36,039 bases of DNA, from the IMG/VR virus record IMGVR_UViG_3300025769_000033, positions 1-36,039 of that record. The stretch is one strand, 5' to 3'. Origin of the DNA: a virus. The notes under the pieces are model-generated. The model saw only the letters and a list, made by a program, of their open reading frames with translations, was not told where the DNA came from and ran no database searches. Positions 10,833-25,290 of the stretch are shown piece after piece. Numbering within the stretch: position 1 is the first letter of the stretch; every line of letters starts with the position of its first letter. The translations under genes and the position numbers were made by a program.

Positions 10833-12143
10833 CTAGCGTATCCAAGCTGTGTCGTTGGAAGGCTTCTGCGCCCAGCCGGCAACGTCCACCTCGGCCTCGG
10901 CGACCGCCATGGCCATGTATCGCACCGCGTCAGCCGGGTGCGTCGTCCAGTCTCGCTCCGGCGTCGCCCGGTACATCTGCCGTTTGTCGTCCCACGCCGC
11001 TCGATACTGTCGGAGCGCCTCAACTAACCGCTGGCATCTCTCCGAGCTGATCCACGTCCTCGGCAGCAGGTTGCGCACGGCATTGATGCCGTCGTCCACA
11101 CGCTGCTGCGGCAGCACCTCGCACCGCAGCCCAAGGCGCTCGAGCGTCTCCTGGCGCGTGATCCCAGTGCCAAGCTCGCGGGCCTGCACGTCGTGCGGCA
11201 GAAAATGGTTTCCGTAGCGATACGGCAGCGACCTCAAGTGCTCCACGTAGTGCGCCAGGCCGACGCCGCTGTTCTCGTAGTAGTCCAAGATCCACACCTC
11301 GCGGCCCACGATCGCCCACATGACGATCGCCGTCGCGTCTCCGATCCCAAGATCCCAGCTCGTATGCACCAGGACATCGCCCGGCGGCGTGATCGTCGTG
11401 ATCCTGCCGGCCTCGGTCAGATCCTCCATCTCGCGGGCGTAGTAGGCTCCGCGAATGCTCGCGGTCCAGGAGCACTCGAACTCTTGCAGATACTGCTCTC
11501 GCGTCAGCTGGCGCTTGGCCGCGTGCAACTCGTCTTTCGGGACGATCCCGGTCTCGCTGGCCTTGCGGATCGCGACCATCCACTCGCCGGTGTCGTCCTC
11601 CTCGGCCTGCTGAACCAAGTCGTAGAAGGCATTCCGCCCTCTCGGCGTGCCGAGAAAGATCGCCCAGCCCTTGCGATCGACCAGTGCCGGGCGGATCACC
11701 TCGCCCCAGAGCCGCGGGTCCATCTGCGCGACCTCGTCCATCACCACGCCGTCGAAGCCTTGGCCTCGCAGCGTGTCGGGGTTATCGCCCCCAAACAGCT
11801 GGATGCGCCCAATGTCTCCAAAGTCGGCGCGAAGCTCGGCCTCGTTGTAGGTCGCTATCGGAACGCAACGGCTGTAGTCCTTCAGCATGTCCCAAGCGAC
11901 TTGCTTGGCCTGCCGGTAGAGCGGCAGCACGATCGCATAGCGCCGACCCGGCTGTCCCGCCGAGAACAGCGCTCGCAGCGCATGGTTTACCGCAAACGTC
12001 GTTTTCCCAAAGCGGCGATGGCAGACCAAAACGCTAAAGCGCTTGAGCGCATGATGCAGGTCACTCTGCGCCGCCCTCGGTCGATACGGTAGGACGATCT
12101 CGGTCGTCTTCCCAGCGGATCGTGAGCGTGCCGGCATTGCCAC
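10833..12143 (-). CDS. terL: Terminase large subunit (436 aa)
   Basis: This ATP-driven DNA packaging motor cuts the genome and pumps it into the head. Residues 42-49 (HRRFGKTT) form a Walker A variant usual for TerL, residues 133-137 (VVMDE) form Walker B, and FLGTPRG at ~164 is the coupling motif. The nuclease domain shows the DLGIGD acidic motif at 264-269 and later acidic residues. The length is typical. The ATG at 12143 gives an 83-base overlap with the small terminase; a second ATG two codons on is equally possible. The stop is TAG. Confidence 0.93.
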   Translation of the reverse strand: MAMPARSRSAGKTTEIVLPYRPRAAQSDLHHALKRFSVLVCHRRFGKTTFAVNHALRALFSAGQPGRRYAIVLPLYRQAKQVAWDMLKDYSRCVPIATYNEAELRADFGDIGRIQLFGGDNPDTLRGQGFDGVVMDEVAQMDPRLWGEVIRPALVDRKGWAIFLGTPRGRNAFYDLVQQAEEDDTGEWMVAIRKASETGIVPKDELHAAKRQLTREQYLQEFECSWTASIRGAYYAREMEDLTEAGRITTITPPGDVLVHTSWDLGIGDATAIVMWAIVGREVWILDYYENSGVGLAHYVEHLRSLPYRYGNHFLPHDVQARELGTGITRQETLERLGLRCEVLPQQRVDDGINAVRNLLPRTWISSERCQRLVEALRQYRAAWDDKRQMYRATPERDWTTHPADAVRYMAMAVAEAEVDVAGWAQKPSNDTAWIR

Positions 12144-12435
12144 CTTGTCGATCGTCCTTGTCTCTTTCGCGCCACCCAGCCCGCGTTTTCAGAAAGAAGA
12201 TCGCGGCAGTCATTGCTTCGCGACCGTCGCCGATCGCCTTCGAGTAGAGGTTGCGCGCGACGTTGGTCACAGCCGCGTCAGCAGCGCTATCAAGCTCCTC
12301 GCGGTAGTATTTGAGCAGCGTTGAGCGATCGATGCCTAGCGCATGCGCCACCCGCTCTTGCGGGATGCCAAACGCGGTCATCTCCCAGACCACGCGCCGC
12401 GCTTTGTCCGTCGGCTCATGCGCCCGGCGTCCCAT
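12061..12435 (-). CDS. terS: Terminase small subunit (124 aa)
   Basis: An N-terminal helix-turn-helix (VWEMTAFGIPQERVAHALGIDRSTLLKYY, residues ~17-45) would recognise the packaging site; a helical oligomerisation region follows (AADAAVTNVARNLYSKAIGDGREAMTAAIFFLKTRAGW). The C-terminal tail is acidic and disordered and would contact TerL. This is the usual small terminase layout and it lies immediately upstream of TerL, overlapping its start. An AAAAGG ribosome site precedes the ATG. Confidence 0.88.
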   Translation of the reverse strand: MGRRAHEPTDKARRVVWEMTAFGIPQERVAHALGIDRSTLLKYYREELDSAADAAVTNVARNLYSKAIGDGREAMTAAIFFLKTRAGWRERDKDDRQGGNAGTLTIRWEDDRDRPTVSTEGGAE

Positions 12436-12510: not shown

Positions 12511-12789
12511 TCAGCACTTCCACCTTTTCATCGACGCCCGCGCCCTCGTCGCCGGCCCTTTTGCGTTTTTCACAACGCCACCCATCCGCGCGCAAAATGA
12601 CTTGCGCCGCGCCGCGTCGGCTTTCGACGGCTTCTTGCCGGTCACCGGCGGCTTGAGGTTGGCCTTGTTTTTCGCGTTGTACGCTCGCCGCCCGGCGGCG
12701 GTCATGCCCGCGCCCTGGCTGGCTGGCAAATAGTGACGGCCTTTGCCTTTCGTCGTCCTGGCGATCGGCTTTGCCGACTTCCTTGCCAT
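12511..12789 (-). CDS. DUF6321-like basic protein (92 aa)
   Basis: The sequence ends KSFCARMGGVVKNAKGPATRARASMKRWKC and has KNKANLKPPVTGKK in the middle; this is the pattern of the DUF6321 family of small phage proteins commonly found near terminase genes. It is strongly basic (Lys and Arg more than a quarter of residues). The N-terminal KGRHYLPASQGAGMTAAGRRAYN fits the same family. The function is unknown; DNA binding is plausible. Its ATG overlaps the stop of the upstream gene (TGATG). Confidence 0.75.
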   Translation of the reverse strand: MARKSAKPIARTTKGKGRHYLPASQGAGMTAAGRRAYNAKNKANLKPPVTGKKPSKADAARRKSFCARMGGVVKNAKGPATRARASMKRWKC

Positions 12790-12962
12790 CAGTGATACAC
12801 CGGCTCTGGCAGCATTGCGCCCACCCAGGCCTCGGCCTCTGCCGCGCTCTCGAAAGACGCGAATATGATCACGTCCACCCGGCCCTGACTCGTCTCCCGC
12901 AGCATGACGCGCGCCTCCCCAACCTGCGCTTCCGGCAGGTCGAAAAAAGAGGGCTCAGGCAT
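12789..12962 (-). CDS. Small hypothetical protein (57 aa)
   Basis: From the ATG at 12962 the product starts MPEPSFFDLPEAQVGEARV and continues with a beta-alpha pattern (GRVDVIIFASFESAAEAEAWVGAML). An in-frame extension upstream would read through the terminator hairpin and is unlikely. It is the first gene after the tandem terminators, so it opens the late transcript. No family is recognised. Confidence 0.6.
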   Translation of the reverse strand: MPEPSFFDLPEAQVGEARVMLRETSQGRVDVIIFASFESAAEAEAWVGAMLPEPVYH

Positions 12963-12982
12963 GTTTAGGCTTTCAAAATGAA

Positions 12983-13023
12983 AAAGCCCCGACCCAGTAT
13001 TTTTGCCGGAGGATCGGGGCTTT
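12983..13023 (-). terminator. Tandem terminator hairpin, most distal copy
   Basis: A 10-bp perfect stem, AAAGCCCCGA against TCGGGGCTTT, encloses a loop of about 21 nt. On the minus strand the stem is followed by a T tract. The stem and flanks repeat those of the hairpin at 13062-13104, so the pair form a ~47-bp direct repeat. Confidence 0.85.
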
Positions 13024-13061
13024 AATTTCACTGATGCGGCAAACGCTGGTGCAGGCATGAA

Positions 13062-13104
13062 AAAGCCCCGACCCGGTATTTTTTTGGCAGAGGATCGGGG
13101 CTTT
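13062..13104 (-). terminator. Tandem terminator hairpin, middle copy
   Basis: This has the same 10-bp stem as the hairpin at 12983-13023, with a loop of 23 nt, and five T residues after the stem on the minus strand. Together the two copies would strongly block leftward transcription into the packaging genes unless RNA polymerase is modified. Confidence 0.85.
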
Positions 13105-13177
13105 CACGTCAGCACCAAGAAAGGACCGACCCACCATTCTTCGCAGGCGGATCTGGCTACCATCCCCACAAACGACA

Positions 13178-13200
13178 AAGCCCCGGCGGGGCCAGGGCTT
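13178..13200 (-). terminator. Third hairpin, promoter-proximal
   Basis: The stem AAGCCC against GGGCTT lies about 20 bases beyond the expected start of the late transcript and resembles the sequence of the two longer hairpins. It lacks a strong T tract on the minus strand, so it may act as a pause or weak terminator. Confidence 0.5.
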
Positions 13201-13224
13201 CATCGGAGTTATAGAGATAAACAC

Positions 13225-13253
13225 AAGATACAGTTCGAGATCCGAGCTGTCAA
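13225..13253 (-). promoter_or_regulatory. Late promoter candidate (lambda PR'-like)
   Basis: On the minus strand there is a perfect -35 TTGACA (13253-13248), a 17-base spacer and the -10 TATCTT (13230-13225). It lies just past the stop of the 72-aa gene and points toward terminase. Three hairpins follow within about 240 bases, so unassisted transcripts should be short. Confidence 0.75.
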
Positions 13254-13259
13254 CAGCAT

Positions 13260-13478
13260 CTAGTCCTCGGCGGTATCCTCCGCCAAACGATCGATCGTCG
13301 GCTGTAGATCCGCGAGCATGTCCTCCAGCTGGCGCGCGACATCATCGAAGCAGATGCCGGGACGCCCTTGCGTGTAGCCAAAAGCGGCCACGGCCTCGTC
13401 GGCGCGCTTGCGAGCATGCCACAAAAGATCCGCGACGGTGCGGTATTCGTTAAATTCGGCGATCGCAAAATTGTTCAT
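13260..13478 (-). CDS. Small hypothetical protein (72 aa)
   Basis: The ATG at 13478 is preceded by AAGGGAGGA at good spacing, which decides the start over an upstream GTG- or ATG-less extension. The product is acidic and helical (MNNFAIAEFNEYRTVADLLWHARKRADEAVAAFGY..., ending DRLAEDTAED). It shares no motif I can name. It forms a two-gene unit with the 127-aa gene, read from the promoter at 13961-13988. Confidence 0.65.
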   Translation of the reverse strand: MNNFAIAEFNEYRTVADLLWHARKRADEAVAAFGYTQGRPGICFDDVARQLEDMLADLQPTIDRLAEDTAED

Positions 13479-13526: not shown

Positions 13527-13910
13527 TTAAAAAGTAAAGTCGCGATATTGACGGCGCTTGCCGATGCGCAGGCCATAGCCGCCACTTTTGTTCCAGCGGC
13601 CCGTCTCCGCGTTAAAAAACACTTCTTCCCACTGGCCCGACCGCGCTTTGCGGAAAACGTATTCAGCGCCGTGAGGATCGGGCGCGTACTCGTAGTCCTG
13701 GCTTTCGCTCACACCGTTGGAGTCAACGCGCTTGGCGTGATCGCGCTGCACGGTGACGCGGTTGCCGTCGACGTTGGTCACGGTCGCCGCGTAGCGGTCG
13801 GACCAGCTCAAGATCGTCGCGCCCATCCCAACCGTCGCTTTGGGCTCGCCGATGGTCATGCGGCTGTACAGATGATTCACGACGCTGTCTGTTTGGGTTC
13901 CGAGTTTCAT
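13527..13910 (-). CDS. Conserved hypothetical phage protein (127 aa)
   Basis: The product contains GMGATILSWSDRYAATV, then DHAKRVDSNGVSESQDYEY and a C-terminal SGGYGLRIGKRRQYRDFTF. I recall this pattern (MGATI-WSDR..., SESQ-YE, GGYGLRIG) from small proteins of many tailed phages and prophages with no assigned function. A clear AAGGGAG site lies 7 bases before the ATG. It is the first gene after the leftward promoter at 13961-13988. Confidence 0.75.
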   Translation of the reverse strand: MKLGTQTDSVVNHLYSRMTIGEPKATVGMGATILSWSDRYAATVTNVDGNRVTVQRDHAKRVDSNGVSESQDYEYAPDPHGAEYVFRKARSGQWEEVFFNAETGRWNKSGGYGLRIGKRRQYRDFTF

Positions 13911-13960
13911 GGTCTTTCTCCCTTACTGGGTCGGGCCTTCCCGCCCCTGTTGACACACTG

Positions 13961-13988
13961 TATATATGAACTTTCGGGGCATTATCAA
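13961..13988 (-). promoter_or_regulatory. Leftward promoter of the two-gene accessory unit
   Basis: On the minus strand TTGATA, a 16-base spacer and TATATA precede the 127-aa gene with a ~44-base leader. Two direct copies of ATGAACTTT (plus strand 13966-13974 and 13998-14006, 32 bp apart, about three helical turns) flank the -35 and are candidate operators, perhaps for the small HTH protein encoded divergently. Confidence 0.65.
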
Positions 13989-14007
13989 GAGAGATACATG
14001 AACTTTT

Positions 14008-14036
14008 TTGACATTTTTTCTGCGCGCGCTTATATC
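14008..14036 (+). promoter_or_regulatory. Rightward promoter of the small HTH gene
   Basis: TTGACA (14008-14013), a 17-base spacer and TATATC (14031-14036) are followed by only seven bases before ATG at 14044, so transcription should start at or next to the initiation codon. It is divergent from the promoter at 13961-13988 and one candidate operator (13998-14006) abuts its -35. Confidence 0.65.
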
Positions 14037-14043
14037 CACCGAC

Positions 14044-14256
14044 ATGACAAGACATGACCTCACAATGCGCCTTCAGGCGCTGGACATCACGGCCAAGCAG
14101 CTGGCGCAGCGGCTCGGCGTGACGTGGCGCGCCGTCGCCAAGGCTTGCGCGAATAGCAGCCGAAATTTGACCGCCCTGATCGACGCTCTGGAGATCATGA
14201 CGCCGGAGCAGCGCGCCGCATGGCTAGGTGATCCGCCACCGGACGGCGATGTCTGA
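14044..14256 (+). CDS. Small HTH regulator, probably leaderless (70 aa)
   Basis: Residues ~12-35 (LDITAKQLAQRLGVTWRAVAKA) form a helix-turn-helix; the remainder is helical with an acidic-Pro tail. I place the start at 14044 because the promoter's expected start point coincides with that ATG and no ribosome site is present; an ATG at 14008 would overlap the -35 box. Its position between divergent promoters suggests a repressor of its own and the leftward promoter. The 3' end overlaps the converging gene on the other strand by 33 bases. Confidence 0.65.
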   Translation: MTRHDLTMRLQALDITAKQLAQRLGVTWRAVAKACANSSRNLTALIDALEIMTPEQRAAWLGDPPPDGDV

Positions 14257-14727
14257 CAGCCCGCTGCGCAGAGCCTCGATCGGCGTCCGCTTTTCGGTCG
14301 GCCAGTGGCGTCGCAGCGCCCATACGCCCGGCCACTCGCCGTGCGCGCAGCAGCCCAGCACGACGCTGCGCTCCCTGGCGTCGAGCGGGCGCATCGCCTC
14401 GCGCAGCATCTCCCGCGCATGCGCCTCCGCTTCCGGGCCGGCCTCGGCTCCGACGCTCTGATCGTAACGAGAGGTGACGCGCGACCTTAGTTGCGCAAGC
14501 TCGGCGTACTGCCGGACCTTGATCCCGGCGGCATGCTGCGGGTCGGTCAGCAAAGCTCGGTGCAGCATTACGTCGAGTGGGTGCTCGTAAAGCACCCTGC
14601 GCACCGTCTCGACCGCCTTCCCGGCTTTCGGGCGCATGGCCTGATCGACGACGGGAGAATGCTGGCGGCGCTCCGGCGTCTCGATCAGGAGCGGAGGCGG
14701 ATCTAGCGGGTTTCTTGTTTTAGCCAT
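14224..14727 (-). CDS. Last gene of the early operon; candidate late antiterminator (167 aa)
   Basis: The start at 14727 gives MAKTRNPLDPPPLLIETPER. A helical central region and a C-terminal part with LDARERSVVLGCCAHGEWPGVWALRRHW precede a final helix (IEALRSGLSDIAVRWR). The C-terminal half weakly recalls DUF6456-type helix-turn-helix proteins. I assign no firm family. As the final gene of the Cro operon, directly before a late promoter trapped by terminators, it occupies the place of lambda Q, so an antiterminator role is a position-based inference. Confidence 0.55.
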   Translation of the reverse strand: MAKTRNPLDPPPLLIETPERRQHSPVVDQAMRPKAGKAVETVRRVLYEHPLDVMLHRALLTDPQHAAGIKVRQYAELAQLRSRVTSRYDQSVGAEAGPEAEAHAREMLREAMRPLDARERSVVLGCCAHGEWPGVWALRRHWPTEKRTPIEALRSGLSDIAVRWRIT

Positions 14728-14975
14728 AGGTCGAACTTCTCGCCGCGTCGCTCCGCGAAGTAGTGACGAGGCCGGCACCTCTGCCGGCGCTCAATGATCA
14801 CCAGCTGCATCCCGCTCCCCGCCCGACGCTGAGCCATCTCGTGCGTTCCAGCGTCATATGCGCGACGAGCCTCCGCGATCGTCATGGGCGCGTCAGTGAT
14901 CGCCCGCCACGACACGTCACCATTGCCGCTCAAGTCTTGCATCGCGATCGGGAGCCACCTTCTCACCAGCGCCAT
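14703..14975 (-). CDS. Hypothetical early protein (90 aa)
   Basis: The ATG at 14975 overlaps the end of the DnaA-fusion gene and gives MALVRRWLPIAMQDLSGNGD. The central segment MTIAEARRAYDAGTHEMAQRR followed by MQLVIIERRQ and a basic tail (PRHYFAERRGEKFDLWL) has the look of small phage early proteins but no known domain. It overlaps the next gene by 25 bases. Confidence 0.55.
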   Translation of the reverse strand: MALVRRWLPIAMQDLSGNGDVSWRAITDAPMTIAEARRAYDAGTHEMAQRRAGSGMQLVIIERRQRCRPRHYFAERRGEKFDLWLKQETR

Positions 14976-15484
14976 TCCAATTGGTCCGAGATCGCCTCGA
15001 TGTCCTCCGCCAGATCGGTTTGCCCTCGCTCTTCCTGCCAGAGCAGCCGGTCTTCGATCCGCCGACACGCGTGCATCATCGACGTGTGGTCGCGCTCGAA
15101 AGCAGCGCCCATCGCGGCATAAGTCATGCCCAGCTTTGTTCTCGCGAGATGAATTGCCACATGCCGGGCAAGCACCATTTCCTTGTTCCCTCGGCTGCAG
15201 CCGCAGATCAGCGCCTCCGGCACCTGATAATAGTCGGACACCACCCCTATCAGCCGCGCCAGATCAGCTGACGGCTTTTTGGCTTTTGCAGGCTCCGCGG
15301 CTTCCAGCTTGGCGACCGCTGCCTGCAGGTAAACGCACAGGTCCATCGCTTCCTCGATCGCCTCTCTGATCAGCTGCACCGGCGGCATCGTGTTCTGATC
15401 CATCGTGCCGCCGAAACGCCGGCGGCCTTCCTCAGCGCGCTGGAGGTGCTGATCGATCAGCTGCTGGACGATCGGGTCACGCAT
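14963..15484 (-). CDS. MazG-like helical domain fused to DnaA domain IV (173 aa)
   Basis: Residues ~1-62 resemble the helical MazG-like/dNTP pyrophosphohydrolase fold of phages (GRRRFGG, then IREAIEEAMDLCVYLQAAV, with acidic residues E44, E45 and D48). Residues ~75-146 match DnaA domain IV: VVSDYYQV, EMVLARHVAIHLAR, then the signature RDHTSMMHACRRIE at 131-144 which contacts the DnaA box. A linker rich in Ala and Lys joins them. No AAA+ domain is present. The start at 15484 overlaps the upstream stop. It may direct or compete at DnaA boxes, or link replication with nucleotide control. Confidence 0.85.
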   Translation of the reverse strand: MRDPIVQQLIDQHLQRAEEGRRRFGGTMDQNTMPPVQLIREAIEEAMDLCVYLQAAVAKLEAAEPAKAKKPSADLARLIGVVSDYYQVPEALICGCSRGNKEMVLARHVAIHLARTKLGMTYAAMGAAFERDHTSMMHACRRIEDRLLWQEERGQTDLAEDIEAISDQLEWRW

Positions 15485-15692
15485 GGTCCAGCTCCAGCAT
15501 GTCGAGGACGCGCGCAGCACGGTCCCGGTAATCGGCGCGCATCAGGTCTCCATCGGTGGACTGAACCGTCCAGTCACAGTCCTGCCATCGGCACGCCGGA
15601 CACGGCTGCTCAAGGTCGCGAAGCAATTTCGCGAGCGCTTCCATGGCATTCTGGTCAAGATCGACAGTCGATGTGTTTTTCTTCGCCATCAT
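15477..15692 (-). CDS. Small cysteine-containing hypothetical protein (71 aa)
   Basis: The protein has a CPACRWQDC segment at ~31-39, a possible metal-binding knuckle, flanked by helices (EALAKLLRDLE, YRDRAARVLDMLELDH). No family is recognised. It is tightly packed between the 187-codon gene and the DnaA fusion, overlapping both, so it belongs to the replication operon. Confidence 0.55.
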   Translation of the reverse strand: MMAKKNTSTVDLDQNAMEALAKLLRDLEQPCPACRWQDCDWTVQSTDGDLMRADYRDRAARVLDMLELDHA

Positions 15693-17193: not shown

Positions 17194-17795
17194 ATGCGCC
17201 CCGTCCATTCCTGACCGTAAGCAGCGGCATCGAATTTTCTGTAACCGTTGGCGGCTGGCGCTTGAGCCTCTCGGCCCAACTCGATCTTCCAGGCCGTTAC
17301 ATGCTGCATAACGTCGGCGATCGGCACGACGCGGCCCGCAGACCTATTTGGGCTGTCGGGCGTGCTCGGCGTCTCAAAAGTCGCGAACGTCTCCTCCAGC
17401 GGCTTAAACCAGCGCCGCAAGGCCGGGAAGTCGATCAGGTACGCGTCAACGGTCCCATCCGGCTGCTCGAAACCGTAGAGGAGATAGTCCGCGCTGGAGG
17501 TCTTCATCCAACCGTCGCGCTTGCGACCGGCGTTGATATTCGACGCCGTTTCGAGCACGAAGGCGGTGTATGCGTGACCGCGCGCTGGCCAGCGGACGAG
17601 CTTCTCCTCAATGCCGATCGCGCGACCATCGGAGGCTTGCAGGAGCGCGTCAACGCCGTGCTGGCGCTGTAGTTCTTTGGCCAGCCCAGGCCCGTCCAGC
17701 AGAACGAACCGCCCCCGCGTCCTCTCCTGATAAAACGGGACAATGACCCGGTCGCGTAGGCCTCGCTGCCAGGCGTCGTCTCGCGCGAAGCTCAC
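17190..17795 (-). CDS. Predicted nuclease-fold protein, GTG start (201 aa)
   Basis: GVDALLQ (D49) and AIGIEEK (E63, E64, K65) resemble the core of a PD-(D/E)XK or restriction-endonuclease-like fold. An aromatic-rich middle (SADYLLYGFEQPDGTVDAYLIDFPALRRWFKPL) follows. The GTG start overlaps the Cro stop (GTGA), so it is the second gene of the early operon. Its substrate is unknown; the acidic and Lys residues would need testing. Confidence 0.55.
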   Translation of the reverse strand: MSFARDDAWQRGLRDRVIVPFYQERTRGRFVLLDGPGLAKELQRQHGVDALLQASDGRAIGIEEKLVRWPARGHAYTAFVLETASNINAGRKRDGWMKTSSADYLLYGFEQPDGTVDAYLIDFPALRRWFKPLEETFATFETPSTPDSPNRSAGRVVPIADVMQHVTAWKIELGREAQAPAANGYRKFDAAAYGQEWTGRI

Positions 17796-18007
17796 CGCAG
17801 CGGCCCTTTGAGGTAGTCGCGGATGGCCGACCGCTCTTCAGCGGTCATCACCGCCTCCTCCGCCATCCGCAGAAGCGCGGCGCGAACGCTGACCTTGTCC
17901 GGCAGCCCCGCGCGCTTCCATTGGCTTATCGCGGTGCGATGCAACCCAAGCCGCCGCGCAATTGCAGCGCCGCCGCCCAGGCGTTTGATCAAATAGTCCA
18001 GGTCCAT
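17792..18007 (-). CDS. Cro-like repressor (71 aa)
   Basis: Residues ~10-36 (GGGAAIARRLGLHRTAISQWKRAG) are a helix-turn-helix of the YdaS/Cro type, followed by VSVRAALLRMAEEA. It is divergent from the cI-like gene and is the first gene of the replication operon. The -10 of its promoter ends six bases before the ATG, so the message is probably leaderless. It should repress the cI promoter and the early promoters to commit to lysis. Confidence 0.85.
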   Translation of the reverse strand: MDLDYLIKRLGGGAAIARRLGLHRTAISQWKRAGLPDKVSVRAALLRMAEEAVMTAEERSAIRDYLKGPLR

Positions 18008-18013
18008 GGGGCA

Positions 18014-18041
18014 ATTGTACCGCTTATTTTTGTTATGTCCA
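18014..18041 (-). promoter_or_regulatory. PR-like promoter of the cro/replication operon
   Basis: On the minus strand TGGACA (18041-18036), a 16-base spacer and TACAAT (18019-18014) place the start point at or beside the cro ATG. The -35 overlaps one half of the operator at 18036-18054. PL at 18755-18782 has the same -35 and spacer length. Confidence 0.8.
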
Positions 18042-18054
18042 TTTCATTTTGACA
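18036..18054. promoter_or_regulatory. Operator candidate at PR
   Basis: TGTCCA, seven bases, TTGACA: an imperfect 19-bp dyad whose left half-site contains the -35 of PR. Binding here would block cro and the replication genes. Confidence 0.75.
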
Positions 18055-18079
18055 TTTGCGCCGCAAATATCATCGCGCT

Positions 18080-18107
18080 TGTCCATTCGAGCTGGACGAG
18101 GTACGGT
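18080..18107. promoter_or_regulatory. Second operator and possible cI promoter
   Basis: TGTCCA, seven bases, TGGACG (18080-18098) is a near-perfect dyad of the same type as the PR operator. It also overlaps a weak plus-strand promoter, TTGTCC (18079-18084), 17 bases, TACGGT (18102-18107), which would start the cI message next to the ATG at 18117 without a ribosome site, as lambda PRM does. The promoter part is low confidence. Confidence 0.6.
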
Positions 18108-18116
18108 CCGCGCATC

Positions 18117-18734
18117 ATGAGCACCTTCAGAGCCCGCCTAAAGGCTGCGCGCGTTGCCGCTGGGTATCGCAACGCGAAACACGCCGCTGAAGCGTTGGGG
18201 GTGCCTTATGCCACATATCAGTCGCACGAGAGCGGCAAGCGGGAGCCTCGCGCCTCGCTATTGAAAATTTACGCTGATACGTTCAACGTCACTGAGACTT
18301 ACCTGGCCGCCGCAGACGCCGAGCCTTTACAGAGCCTCAGTCCACGGCCACCCCCTCTAGTGCAGATGGTGCCTGTCGTGTCATGGGCGAGCGCATCGGA
18401 CTTCTCTGAGGCGACGGCGGAAAACGGCGAAAAAGTGCCGGTGCCGTCTAGTTCTTCAACGCTCTTTGCGCTGCGCGTCTCTGGGAATTCAATGGATCGA
18501 GAGGCTCCGCACAACTCGATCATTGTGGTTGACTACGCTCAGACATTTCCCGTCGATAGAGCACTGGTCGTGGCTCGGCGGGATAACGAGACTACGTTCA
18601 AGCGGTACCGCGACAATGACGGCCCTCGTCGTTTGGAGCCGGCCAGCACCGACCCCTCGCATCAGTCTATTTTTGAGAATGGGGGCGCGATCGAAATTAT
18701 TGGCCGGGTCATATATATCATCCGAGCTGTTTGA
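18117..18734 (+). CDS. cI-type repressor with S24 peptidase domain (205 aa)
   Basis: Residues ~5-60 form a helix-turn-helix (LKAARVAAGYRNAKHAAEALGVPYATYQSHESGKREP). From ~85 (VPVVSW) to the end is an S24 LexA-like domain: catalytic Ser125 in SGNSM and Lys162 in TTFKRYR, with the family IIVVDY and IIGRVIYI strands. RecA-stimulated self-cleavage would induce the prophage. Where the family has Ala-Gly before cleavage, this one reads ASASD at 91-95, so the scissile site is not canonical. I start at 18117; an upstream ATG would run through the operators. Divergent from cro. Confidence 0.9.
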   Translation: MSTFRARLKAARVAAGYRNAKHAAEALGVPYATYQSHESGKREPRASLLKIYADTFNVTETYLAAADAEPLQSLSPRPPPLVQMVPVVSWASASDFSEATAENGEKVPVPSSSSTLFALRVSGNSMDREAPHNSIIVVDYAQTFPVDRALVVARRDNETTFKRYRDNDGPRRLEPASTDPSHQSIFENGGAIEIIGRVIYIIRAV

Positions 18735-21113: not shown

Positions 21114-21205
21114 GCAAAGCCGGCCAGCCAAGGGCGTTACCTCCCTCTGTGCCCGGTCAGGCGCGCGGCAGTGGCTGGAGCCGCGCGCCACTTTGAGTGA
21201 GCCTG

Positions 21206-21709
21206 ATGAAAAACCCGATCGCCAAACCCAAACTCGCGACCGTGCCGCTCTCGCTGGCGGAAGCCAATGAATTCGTGCGCCGTCACCATCGGCACCACCG
21301 GCCAGTGGTCGGACATAAATTTTCGATCGGCGCAGTGCTCGGGGATCGGGTGGTTGGGGTGGCGATTGTGGGGAGGCCGGTTTCCCGACACCGCGATGAC
21401 GGCCTCACGCTTGAGGTCACGAGGCTCTACACGGATGGCACCCCGAACGCTTGTTCTTACCTTGACGGGGAGGCTTGGCGCGCGGCCAAGGCGCTCGGCT
21501 TTAAGAGGCTCGAAACCTATGACTGGCGCATGGTTGCCGACTGGCCCCGCCTTCCTCCGGCGTCGTAGGCGCTCGGCTTTAAGAGGCTCGAAACCTATGA
21601 CTGGCACATGGTTGCCGAGGTGAGGGGGCGCAGTTGGTCGACCCCGAGCCGTCCGCGCGTGGACACGCACCCGCTCGGGCAAAAGCTCTTGTGGGAGGTC
21701 GAGGCATGA
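21206..21709 (+). pseudogene. XF1762-type gene interrupted by a partial duplication and an amber codon
   Basis: Residues 1-95 follow the XF1762 family pattern: LSLAEANEFVRRHHRHHRPVVGHKFSIGAVLGDRVVGVAIVGRP, DGLTLEVTRLYTDGTPNACSYL and RAAKALGFKRLETYDW. The frame meets TAG at 21566-21568. Immediately after it, still in frame, GCG-CTC-GGC begins a second copy of the stretch from 21491, 78 bases downstream, with one difference, and it leads on to the family's expected C-terminus RGRSWSTPSRPRVDTHPLGQ up to a TGA at 21707. An intact gene of 167 codons is thus cut into two pieces. TAG is a used stop elsewhere in this genome, so it is not simply recoded. Confidence 0.75.
21491..21619 (+). repeat. In-frame tandem partial duplication
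   Basis: Copies begin at 21491 and 21569 (78 bases, 26 codons apart) and match for about 50 bases with a G/A change near the end. They diverge after GTTGCCGA. The unit of ~50 bases is what splits the XF1762-type gene. Confidence 0.9.
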
Positions 21710-21942
21710 CGGGTCGCAAAAACCCCATCGCCAAGCATTTGAATGTTAATCGCCCGCAGGCGATCGACGGTAAACGCTCGGAGCCAGAGCCCGATCCGCG
21801 CGAGCAGATCTATTGCACGCGCTGCGGTGCATGGGCCGAGGAGGGCGCGGTGCCGCAACTAGTCTGGGTCGCCGGGCATAGCCAATGCGCGGCGTGCCAT
21901 CGGGTTATAGATGAATGCTGTCAGGGCGAGCAGGCGACATGA
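21706..21942 (+). CDS. Small zinc-ribbon protein (78 aa)
   Basis: C37-x2-C40 (YCTRCGAW) and C61-x2-C64 (QCAACHRV) form a zinc ribbon. The N-terminal KNPIAKHLNVNRPQAIDGKR resembles short phage proteins whose start reads KNP-AKH. It is translationally coupled to the broken XF1762 gene (ATGA) and to the methyltransferase downstream (ATGA). Its last 26 bases before the final codons are repeated at 23569. Confidence 0.65.
   Translation: MTGRKNPIAKHLNVNRPQAIDGKRSEPEPDPREQIYCTRCGAWAEEGAVPQLVWVAGHSQCAACHRVIDECCQGEQAT
21889..21914 (+). repeat. 26-bp repeat, copy A (end of zinc-ribbon gene)
   Basis: The 26 bases are identical to 23569-23594. Here they code for the residues around A62 to D69 of the zinc ribbon; the second copy lies before the start of the 187-codon gene. 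The pair bracket the methyltransferase, DUF6948 and RS-repeat genes. Confidence 0.9.
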
Positions 21943-23051
21943 ACGTCCTGTCCGTCTGTTCCGGCATCGGAGCGCCAGAGGCTGCTTGGTCTCCGCTCGG
22001 CTGGGACTTTATCGCCTGCTCCGAGATCGACGCCTTCCCAGCGGCTGTAATGGCGCATCACTACCCCGACGTCCCGAACTGGGGCGACATGACCAATTTC
22101 CAGAGGTGGCCGGATGCAGATGTCGATGTTCTCGTTGGAGGAACCCCATGCCAGTCGTTCAGCGTCGCAGGGCTCCGCAGAGGAATGGATGACCCGCGTG
22201 GTAACCTCGCCCTCACATATCTTGCCATCTCTGACCGCTATCGGCCCCGCTGGTTGGTATGGGAGAACGTCCCCGGCGTCTTGTCATCAAACGGAGGACG
22301 GGACTTTGGAGCCTTCCTCGGGGCGTTGGGGCAACTCGGGTATGGGTTCGCCTACCGAGTGCTTGACGCTCAATACTTCGGCTTGGCCCAGCGACGGAAG
22401 CGCGTGTTCGTTGTCGGGCATTTTGGTGACTGGCGACGTGCCGCGGCGGTACTTTTTGAGCGCGACAGCTTGTCGGGGCATCCTCCGCCGAGCCGAGAAG
22501 CGGGGGAAGAGTTTGCCGCCCCAACTGCGCCAAGCCTTACAGCGAGTGGCCGCGGCGTAGAGCGCGCCGGAGAGAGCCGAGGCCAAGATCCCGTCGTTGC
22601 AATGTGCCTGAATGCCCATGGCGGCTCTGGACGCATGGATGCGGAAAGCGAAACGCTTGTCACCCACACCCTGCGCGGGGATGGCTTCGATGCATCGGAG
22701 GATGGGACGGGCCGCGGGACGCCTTTGGTCGCCGCAGTCGCAGACACCCTTACCGCGCACTGGGAGCGATCGCAGGGGGCTAAGGCGGGCAACTCGGTGG
22801 GGATGATTAACGCCATTACCTACCCGGACGCCGTTCGGCGCTTGATGCCGATCGAGTGCGAGCGGCTCCAAGGGTTCCGAGACGGCTACACCGCCATCAC
22901 TTATCGCGGCAAGCCAGCAGCGGATGGGCCGCGATACAAGGCGCTGGGAAATTCCATGGCCGTGCCGGTCGTGCGCTGGATCGGGGAGCGGATCAGGACC
23001 GCAGAGGGCATGTATTTAGCAACCACCATCCACAAGGAAAAGTGCAAATGA
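21939..23051 (+). CDS. C5-cytosine DNA methyltransferase (370 aa)
   Basis: Motif I (SVCSGIGAPE, residues 5-14), motif IV with catalytic Cys71 in GGTPCQSFS, motif VI ENVPG (109-113), motif VIII QRRKRVFVVG (151-160) and motif X GNSMAVPVVRW near the end are all intact. Residues ~175-270 form a variable target-recognition region. The protein modifies cytosine in phage DNA, probably protecting it from host restriction; no cognate endonuclease is adjacent. The start at 21939 overlaps the zinc-ribbon stop. The target sequence cannot be read from the protein. Confidence 0.93.
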   Translation: MNVLSVCSGIGAPEAAWSPLGWDFIACSEIDAFPAAVMAHHYPDVPNWGDMTNFQRWPDADVDVLVGGTPCQSFSVAGLRRGMDDPRGNLALTYLAISDRYRPRWLVWENVPGVLSSNGGRDFGAFLGALGQLGYGFAYRVLDAQYFGLAQRRKRVFVVGHFGDWRRAAAVLFERDSLSGHPPPSREAGEEFAAPTAPSLTASGRGVERAGESRGQDPVVAMCLNAHGGSGRMDAESETLVTHTLRGDGFDASEDGTGRGTPLVAAVADTLTAHWERSQGAKAGNSVGMINAITYPDAVRRLMPIECERLQGFRDGYTAITYRGKPAADGPRYKALGNSMAVPVVRWIGERIRTAEGMYLATTIHKEKCK

Positions 23052-23314: not shown

Positions 23315-23565
23315 CCGCTGCACGATATAGATCTAGGTCTATGCCTGGGTTTAAGTCTTGGTCTGGGCCTAGGTCTATGTCTATGTCTAGGTCTGGGTCT
23401 AGTTATGGGTTTCGGTCTTGGTCTTGGTCTAGGTCTTGGTCTAGGTCTAGGTCTTGGTCTGGGTCTTGGTCTTGGTCTGGGTCTTGGTCTGGGTCAAGCT
23501 CGATCAGGTTATTGACGAGTGTTGCCGGGGCGATGCCGAGGAGAGTAATATTGTGGGAGCCGTGA
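23311..23565 (+). CDS. RS/SW-repeat low-complexity protein (84 aa)
   Basis: From residue 6 to about 61 the product is built of Ser-x pairs: RSRS, SMSMSRSG, SWSWSRSW, SGSWSGS. They are encoded by a near-continuous GGTCTN hexanucleotide repeat. The ATG overlaps the DUF6948 stop. The repeats are imperfect and are expected to vary between strains by slippage, always in steps of two residues, so the frame survives. The opposite strand is open too and would read Asp-Pro-Asp-Gln repeats. I know of low-complexity genes in this place in other phages but not of a function. Confidence 0.6.
   Translation: MTAARYRSRSMPGFKSWSGPRSMSMSRSGSSYGFRSWSWSRSWSRSRSWSGSWSWSGSWSGSSSIRLLTSVAGAMPRRVILWEP
23329..23494 (+). 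repeat. GGTCTN hexanucleotide tandem repeat
   Basis: About 25 to 28 imperfect units of GGTCTT, GGTCTA, GGTCTG and GGGTCT. The period of six keeps the reading frame open on both strands. It encodes the RS/SW repeat of the gene at 23311-23565. Confidence 0.9.
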
Positions 23566-24193: not shown

Positions 24194-24469
24194 ATGAACC
24201 AGGAGATTTTCACGGTCGGCCAATTGGCGGAGCGATGGGGGGTGCCGCTTAGCAGCATCAGGAGGATGATCAAGCGTAAACAGTTGCGCGCGTTCCGCGT
24301 CGGGCGGCATCATCGTGTGACATTGCAGGCCATAACGGAACACGAACAATGCGGATCAAGCTCTTCCGAGGTAAATGGTGCGCAGTCTGGCGAGAGAGCG
24401 GCCAGACCAGACGCGTCTCGCTCCGCACTGACGATCGTGACATTGCCGAGCAGCGCCTCGCGGACTTGA
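24194..24469 (+). CDS. Excisionase-like MerR/HTH_17 protein (91 aa)
   Basis: ATTGGAGGAAAA before ATG 24194 is the best ribosome site of the region. Residues ~6-50 (FTVGQLAERWGVPLSSIRRMIKRKQLRAFRVGRHHRVTLQAI) are an HTH_17 winged helix as in phage excisionases and their helper proteins. The final 40 residues (Ser/Ala-rich) overlap the integrase in another frame by 120 bases and may not be needed. Directly upstream of the integrase, so it would set the direction of recombination. Confidence 0.75.
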   Translation: MNQEIFTVGQLAERWGVPLSSIRRMIKRKQLRAFRVGRHHRVTLQAITEHEQCGSSSSEVNGAQSGERAARPDASRSALTIVTLPSSASRT

Positions 24470-25290
24470 GAGCGCAGGCGGCTCGACCGCGCGAGGATAC
24501 CATCGCGGCGGTCATGGAGGCCTATATCGCCGCCGGAGATCGAGAGCGCGCCCGGTATTCGTACAAAGCGCTGCGGCCCTTCTGGGGCGCTCTCCGACCT
24601 GATCAGATATGTCCTGAGCTTTGTCGCGAGTATATCGCCCTGCGGCGCGAGGTCGTGCAGGACGGCACGATCCGGCGCGAGATCACCGACCTGCGCAGCG
24701 CCGTCCGAGCGCATGCAACAGATAAAAGCGCGATCTTCGAACTACCTGCGCCGCCGGCACCCCGGCACCGTCATATCACCAAGGGCGAATACCGCGCGCT
24801 CCGAGACGCCGCCGTCTCAACGCCTCACCTCTATCTTTTCTTGGAGCTAGCAATTGCCACCGGCGCGCGCAAAACAGCGCTGTTGCAGCTGACGTGGCCT
24901 CAGATCGACTTCCCACGCCAGCGGATCGACCTCGGCATCGGCACGAAGAATAAAGGGCGGGCAGTGCTTCCGATGACGGCGGGGGCGCGGCGAGCACTGA
25001 TCGTTGCCAAGCAGGTCGCGATGACGCATCACGTCATCGAGTTCGCCGGCAAGCCGGTGCTCGACATCAAGAAGTCGTTCGCCAGGGCTGTCCAGCGGGC
25101 GGGGCTGGAGGATGTAACGCCGCACGTCCTGCGGCACAGCGCCGCCGTCTGGATGGCGGAGGCCGGCGTGCCAATGGCGGAGATCGCGCAGTATCTTGGC
25201 CACGACAGCCTCGAGACAACGCGAAAAATATACGCGCGTTTCAGCCCAGACTATCTGCGCGGCGCGGCGCGGGCGCTTGAGGTGGACTAA
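24349..25290 (+). CDS. int: Tyrosine recombinase integrase (313 aa)
   Basis: The catalytic set is complete: R174 in TGARKTALLQLTW, Lys near 200-202 (TKNKGR), H259-x-x-R262 in HVLRHSAAVW, H285 in YLGHDS and Y295 in TRKIYARFSP. The N-terminal part (residues ~1-45, FRGKWCAVWRESGQTRRVSLRTDD) and SAM-like core-binding domain (~52-130) are in order. The attP region begins 260 bases past its stop. Integration into a tRNA-Pro gene is expected. The ATG is inside the excisionase gene. Confidence 0.92.
   Translation: MRIKLFRGKWCAVWRESGQTRRVSLRTDDRDIAEQRLADLRAQAARPREDTIAAVMEAYIAAGDRERARYSYKALRPFWGALRPDQICPELCREYIALRREVVQDGTIRREITDLRSAVRAHATDKSAIFELPAPPAPRHRHITKGEYRALRDAAVSTPHLYLFLELAIATGARKTALLQLTWPQIDFPRQRIDLGIGTKNKGRAVLPMTAGARRALIVAKQVAMTHHVIEFAGKPVLDIKKSFARAVQRAGLEDVTPHVLRHSAAVWMAEAGVPMAEIAQYLGHDSLETTRKIYARFSPDYLRGAARALEVD

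Follow-up and report, generated by a model that had tools for sequence, protein, structure and literature searches.

The question raised by this locus is whether a strong leftward promoter, lying just ahead of a row of hairpins and the late genes of a virus, is part of a switch for late transcription, and which viral protein would operate it. The window, meaning the whole stretch of DNA analysed, is a virus record of 36,039 bases. The promoter, its leader and the neighbouring genes were examined in the window and in near and distant relatives.

Gene layout and the late promoter

The record looks temperate, with an S24-type repressor gene (18006-18734) and an integrase gene (24349-25290). The early genes form a leftward operon that begins with a Cro/YdaS-like gene (17792-18007) and leads through a DnaA-C-domain gene to a DUF6456 gene, so that GafY-like and GafZ-like genes form its end. 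The late genes run leftward from 12962 in the order 57-aa gene, DUF6321, terS, terL, portal, scaffold and major head protein. The genes that bear on the question are as follows.

14963..15520, minus strand: gafY-like gene with a Bac_DnaA_C domain (PF08299, 6.8e-16)
14224..14727, minus strand: gafZ-like antiterminator candidate, DUF6456, 167 aa (PF20057, 35.3 bits)
14044..14256, plus strand: HTH regulator gene, convergent with gafZ and overlapping the gafZ 3' end
12789..12962, minus strand: first late gene, 57 aa, no family; L005, L008 and L010-L017 have a homologue that likewise comes first among the late genes
12061..12435, minus strand: terS-like gene (PHROG terminase small subunit, 5e-11)
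10833..12143, minus strand: terL (PF03237)

The DUF6456 gene does not adjoin the promoter. Two small leftward genes (13527-13910 and 13260-13478) and the rightward HTH gene lie in between. The HTH gene is present in L002, L003, L005, L006 and L008-L017, is a remnant in L004, and was not found in L007. It overlaps the gafZ-like gene tail to tail by 33 nt (14224-14256); L009-L013 have this arrangement too, and antisense control of the antiterminator gene through this overlap is possible. The HTH gene and the leftward 13527-13910 gene diverge from an intergenic region (13911-14043) with two imperfect repeats, AAAGTTCATGTATCTC and AAAGTTCATATATACA, that resemble a pair of operators for the HTH protein. 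The minus strand of this region also carries a promoter-like TTGATA-N16-TATATA.

The promoter and its leader contain the following features.

13225..13253, minus strand: late promoter, TTGACA (13253-13248), 17 nt, TATCTT (13230-13225), the best sigma-70-type match
13208..13213, minus strand: TATAAC, a -10-like element in the initially transcribed region, 5/6 to TATAAT, 11 nt after the -10
13205..13173, minus strand: hairpin 1, 15-bp stem, loop of 3, -25.3 kcal/mol, fold z -5.9
About 13157..13125, minus strand: weak middle hairpin, direct-repeat family D1
13104..13062, minus strand: intrinsic terminator copy 1, 13-nt arms and U-tail, fold z -4.3
13023..12983, minus strand: intrinsic terminator copy 2, 13-nt arms and U-tail, fold z -4.5, just before the first late gene

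The initial annotation had proposed the leftward TTGACA-17-TATCTT promoter, and this is indeed the sole sigma-70-type site with 10/12 matches on either strand of the whole record. Transcription is predicted to start near 13218, which places the start codon of the first late gene about 256 nt from the predicted start. No other minus-strand promoter match was found from 13225 to the end of terL, and so none directly before terS, where a strong promoter had been named as evidence against the switch.

The TATAAC element is a candidate sigma-dependent pause site, although it is a short motif that was picked out post hoc. Counterparts 11-12 nt after the -10 are CACAAT in L008, TAGATT/TAGAGT in L010/L013 and TAAACT in L014. 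By eye, the 17-nt spacer between -35 and -10 holds no clear palindrome like the Caulobacter ZBE, a motif known from one promoter only, and the single match to the IHF consensus in the record lies far from the promoter. An open frame across the leader (12973-13224) was ruled out as coding, since it begins before the transcript is predicted to start and since relatives have indels in it. The leader contains no convincing leader peptide and matches no Rfam family.

Leader hairpins and their recurrence in relatives

The hairpins at 13205-13173, 13104-13062 and 13023-12983 each folded better than all 200 shuffles, and the leader as a whole gave a z of -8.7. Among the terminator-like sites of the record, on both strands, the three rank 1, 3 and 4. 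Not every hairpin alone scores above the best value from 20 shuffles of the whole record; the excess over chance lies in finding three within 260 nt behind the best promoter, compared with a same-strand density elsewhere of 0.02 per 270 nt. Terminator copies 1 and 2 are one duplicated unit with 90% identity over 48 nt, in agreement with the two near-identical repeats first described. The gap from copy 2 to the first late gene is only about 20 nt.

All three hairpins had been read as tandem terminators. This holds for the two U-tailed copies. Hairpin 1 is followed by TTTGTGGGG and has no proper U-tail, since its earlier T's lie in the stem; therefore only the last two hairpins look like good intrinsic terminators. 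For want of a U-tract hairpin 1 was set aside as a terminator, and it is probably a conserved 5' stem. The middle hairpin, which alone folds no better than shuffles (z -0.5), looks like a decayed terminator unit.

Five near relatives (L003-L007), with DUF6456 proteins 95-100% identical, have an identical promoter and 0-1 changes in the 79 nt from promoter to hairpin 1. Few 4-fold changes are found in p72 and p57, the genes next to it, as well, so local conservation is only modestly above their low divergence. Conservation of the promoter and hairpin 1 is thus modest evidence because the whole region evolves slowly, and sequence conservation was dropped as a sole proof. Terminator copy number varies: L005 has a single unit, while L004, L006 and L007 have one intact and one decayed. 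In these three it is copy 1 that has decayed, with no U-tract and one stem mismatch; every near relative has copy 2 intact. None of them lacks a good terminator immediately ahead of the first late gene. In L004 (5309-5416) and L007 (5845-5952) a deletion has seemingly fused the 57-aa gene with the DUF6321 gene, leaving 24 codons from the start of one and 46 nt from the end of the other.

Among more distant relatives, L008 (GafZ 59% identical) has the promoter region and hairpin 1 in common with the window, as well as the motif GTTTATCTC. Its local alignment score is 47, compared with 31 for the best of 1000 shuffles and 28 for the best other L008 window. Its promoter is homologous with a weak -35 and -10, and no terminator was found in its 92-nt leader. 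DUF6456 proteins are 48-50% identical in L010-L013 and 41-45% identical in L014-L017. In all eight of these the 57-aa-gene homologue comes first among the late genes and is preceded by a TTGACG-N16/17 promoter and a long 5'-terminal stem. Most have a terminator unrelated in sequence, AACGGCTGG...CCAGCCGTT and then T's. L010/L012 and L014-L017 repeat the layout of the window, in which the DUF6456 gene is followed by the promoter, a terminator-bearing leader and the first late gene, and L015 has one extra terminator inserted relative to L014.

A strong 5' stem is found in every lineage examined. In the marine relatives pairing is kept in 74/75 cells, with double changes in 6/16 pairs, in an alignment of few sequences that was made by hand from predicted folds and so leans towards pairing.

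The window region (nucleotide) and the window DUF6456 protein gave no match in the phage collection; the L014 homologue as query led to phiKX1/2. phiKX1 is a cultured Komagataeibacter phage, and it belongs with L022-L029 to an acetic-acid-bacteria group whose DUF6456 proteins are 28-31% identical to that of the window. In this group a conserved TTGTAC promoter-like stretch directly follows the DUF6456 gene, a terminator lies about 70 nt after the -35, and the terminase genes come next, terS being annotated in phiKX1 only. The phiKX1 promoter scores under the 9/12 threshold, and the hairpins of L013 and L022/L024/L027 fall under the terminator threshold. Terminator pairing in the phiKX1 group is kept in 51/55 cells, with double changes in 2/7 pairs. 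The terminators differ in sequence among lineages and have compensatory changes. At the strict threshold, 12/17 leaders, which represent about five lineages and not 17 independent cases, have one to three terminators, compared with 0.02 per 270 nt elsewhere on the same strand.

One locus, L019, comes from a contig filed under a Halobacteriovorax MAG. It matches the viral contig L013 and has the same length (34887). L019 is probably a phage contig, and its Halobacteriovorax host assignment is doubtful.

The DUF6456 protein and its putative partner

The initial annotation had noted that the 14224-14727 product lacks a Q sequence and might be a new antiterminator. The first point stands: no match to PF03589 or PF06530 (lambda Q / Q21 families) was found at E up to 1. 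The second does not, since the protein matches PF20057 (DUF6456) with 35.3 bits over a Pfam cut-off of 26.3, and so belongs to the GafA/GafZ family. Diverse phage members also match DUF6456 (9/9, some just below the cut-off). The family was found in 1/14 control genomes, that of Caulobacter vibrioides, and it is on this shared Pfam family that the link between the window protein and Caulobacter GafZ/GafY rests.

BLAST relatives of GafA bear the DUF6456 name (PMC9638019). Caulobacter GafZ is homologous to the C-terminal part of GafA, and GafY is the counterpart of its DnaA-like part; GafZ of the Caulobacter gene transfer agent (GTA) was experimentally shown to be an antiterminator in 2024 (PMC11150451). 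Its partners are RNAP, NusA, NusE and NusG, its binding site lies between -35 and -10, and the terminator that it overcomes is built of three direct repeats (PMC11150451). In the window, a DnaA-C-domain protein (PF08299) is encoded two genes upstream of the DUF6456 gene, and by its domain the 14963-15520 product is the putative GafY-like partner. A DnaA-C-domain gene also lies near the DUF6456 gene in L008, L010 and L014; none was found among the three upstream ORFs scanned in phiKX1.

AlphaFold2 models of the DUF6456 protein have a mean pLDDT of 74, with much of the C-terminal half above 90, and predict a C-terminal HTH like that of sigma region 4, which also gives the best fold matches. Q21 (6p18_Q) matched with Z 6.8-6.9 over 98 residues (rmsd 5.0-5.1) and AlpA (7xya_G) with Z 6.2-6.3 over 96-99 residues (rmsd 4.8-5.2), both below the caution limit of 8. 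Across the models, these two aligned over longer stretches than any other match, 88-99 residues at Z 5.5-7, level with the sigma factors. Of the families suggested earlier for profile and structure searches, DUF6456 was thus recovered and the Q profiles were not, while the 21Q fold tied with sigma region 4. The model fits, but does not show, a Q21-like mechanism, and the Caulobacter authors saw no Q21-like similarity in GafZ (PMC11150451).

Probable late control by antitermination

The promoter, the terminators, the gene families and their recurrence are observations of this analysis. We consider it likely that the locus is a late-gene antitermination switch. RNA polymerase would start near 13218 from the near-consensus promoter and, without phage proteins, would make a short structured RNA ending at the terminators at 13062 and 12983; the terminase and structural genes would hence be off. 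Expression of the early leftward operon would supply the GafZ-like product, to be loaded onto polymerase at the late promoter, probably during a sigma-dependent pause at TATAAC and with or without the GafY-like partner. The modified polymerase would then read through the terminators into the late genes. Q-type factors require a promoter binding element, a -10-like element in the early transcript and a downstream terminator (PMC9371919; PMC7171158). Because the terminator is present, the -10-like element was chosen post hoc and a binding element was not recognised, we hold antitermination to be likely and infer the pause and the loading. Besides the unrecognised binding element, points that weigh against this reading are the terminator-free leader of L008, the sub-threshold hairpins of L013 and L022/L024/L027, the sub-threshold promoter of phiKX1 and the modest level of local conservation.

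The terminators might instead do no more than end the operon upstream of them (13527-13910, 13260-13478) and shield the late genes, which would be transcribed from another promoter. We find this unlikely. Transcription of the upstream genes, which run in the same direction, would continue into the leader, and tandem terminators are common at operon ends, but the best promoter of the record sits between that operon and the terminators. Moreover, the place of the promoter is kept in other lineages, no second promoter match precedes terL, and phiKX1-type phages have promoter and terminator directly after gafZ without such an operon. Insulation of the late genes may be a side effect.

The chances are somewhat poorer that the GafY/GafZ-like proteins act solely at initiation, as an activator or sigma-like factor, with the terminators partially passed unaided. 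Such a role would agree with the fold matches to sigma region 4 and with the first description of GafA as an activator with a sigma-like C-terminus (PMC6363796). However, GafZ itself antiterminates (PMC11150451), and the -35 here is consensus, unlike the GafY-requiring AATCAT of Caulobacter, so activation should be less needed. Finally, it is very improbable that a cis-acting RNA leader (attenuator or put-like element) governs read-through without a protein antiterminator: the 5' stem is indeed strong throughout and stays paired in the marine relatives, but Rfam family and leader peptide are wanting and the GafZ gene is always present, though the loci were gathered partly through it.

An antitermination switch of this kind resembles the GafYZ system of the Caulobacter crescentus GTA (PMC11150451). 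Both have a DUF6456 antiterminator (a candidate in the window) with a nearby DnaA-C-domain partner, a single main promoter with the -10 TATCTT(T) (TATCTTT in Caulobacter), a long leader (250 nt untranslated in Caulobacter, 256 nt to the start codon in the window) and a terminator of direct repeats with inverted repeats. They differ in that the window is an autonomous temperate phage, its terminators stand before and not after the first late gene, these are 41-43-nt hairpins and not 150-bp repeats, its -35 is consensus and not degenerate (AATCAT), and its promoter lacks a recognisable ZBE or IHF site nearby.

The lambda-like plan of the initial annotation (PR', short RNA, terminator, a gene in the position of Q) is well supported by this anatomy and by its recurrence in leaders of other DUF6456 phages that look unrelated. 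As in lambda PR'-tR'-Q and in phages 21 and 82, a strong late promoter is followed by a -10-like element early in the transcript, a short leader RNA and a terminator, and the antiterminator gene ends the early operon; in the window the -10-like element and the antiterminator are candidates and the short RNA is predicted. Unlike lambda Q, the window protein has no sequence relation to the Pfam Q families, its gene and the promoter lie about 1 kb apart with other genes in the gap, and the leader holds more than one terminator. AlpA, from Pseudomonas aeruginosa (PMC9371919), is an HTH antiterminator loaded at a promoter with a terminator downstream, as is proposed here, and the model resembles it weakly (Z 6.2-6.3); no sequence relation was detected, and the targets of AlpA are lysis genes in a cell-death pathway and not the late operon of a phage.

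A phage-borne GafA/DUF6456 protein is already on record for roseophage RDJL Phi 1 (gp38, 42.4 bits; PMC6363796), as a single longer protein where the window has separate GafY- and GafZ-like proteins. In the open literature searched, no description was found of GafZ as a phage late switch with this promoter-terminator layout. The kind of system is known; its setting and layout are new. An antiterminator known from domesticated GTAs would also be at work in free-standing phages, in the classical part of Q, and this favours the idea that GTAs took over their regulation from the late control of phages. Genes that phage annotations list simply as DUF6456 gain a likely function, and a system as compact as this, with a promoter, a 256-nt leader and one or two proteins, would make GafZ testable without host regulators such as RogA. 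More speculatively, DUF6456 proteins may form another phage-borne family of Q-type nozzle antiterminators that serves as the late switch in several phage groups, from which GTAs inherited GafYZ, and the conserved 5'-terminal leader stem may aid loading or protection of the complex.

Elsewhere in the record, the plus strand encodes a Mom-like DNA modification protein and a C5 cytosine methylase side by side (21197-21568 and 21915-23051), possibly anti-restriction genes. A short hexamer-repeat array of the GGTCTAGGTCTAGGTCTTGGTCT type lies at 23438-23465 on the same strand.
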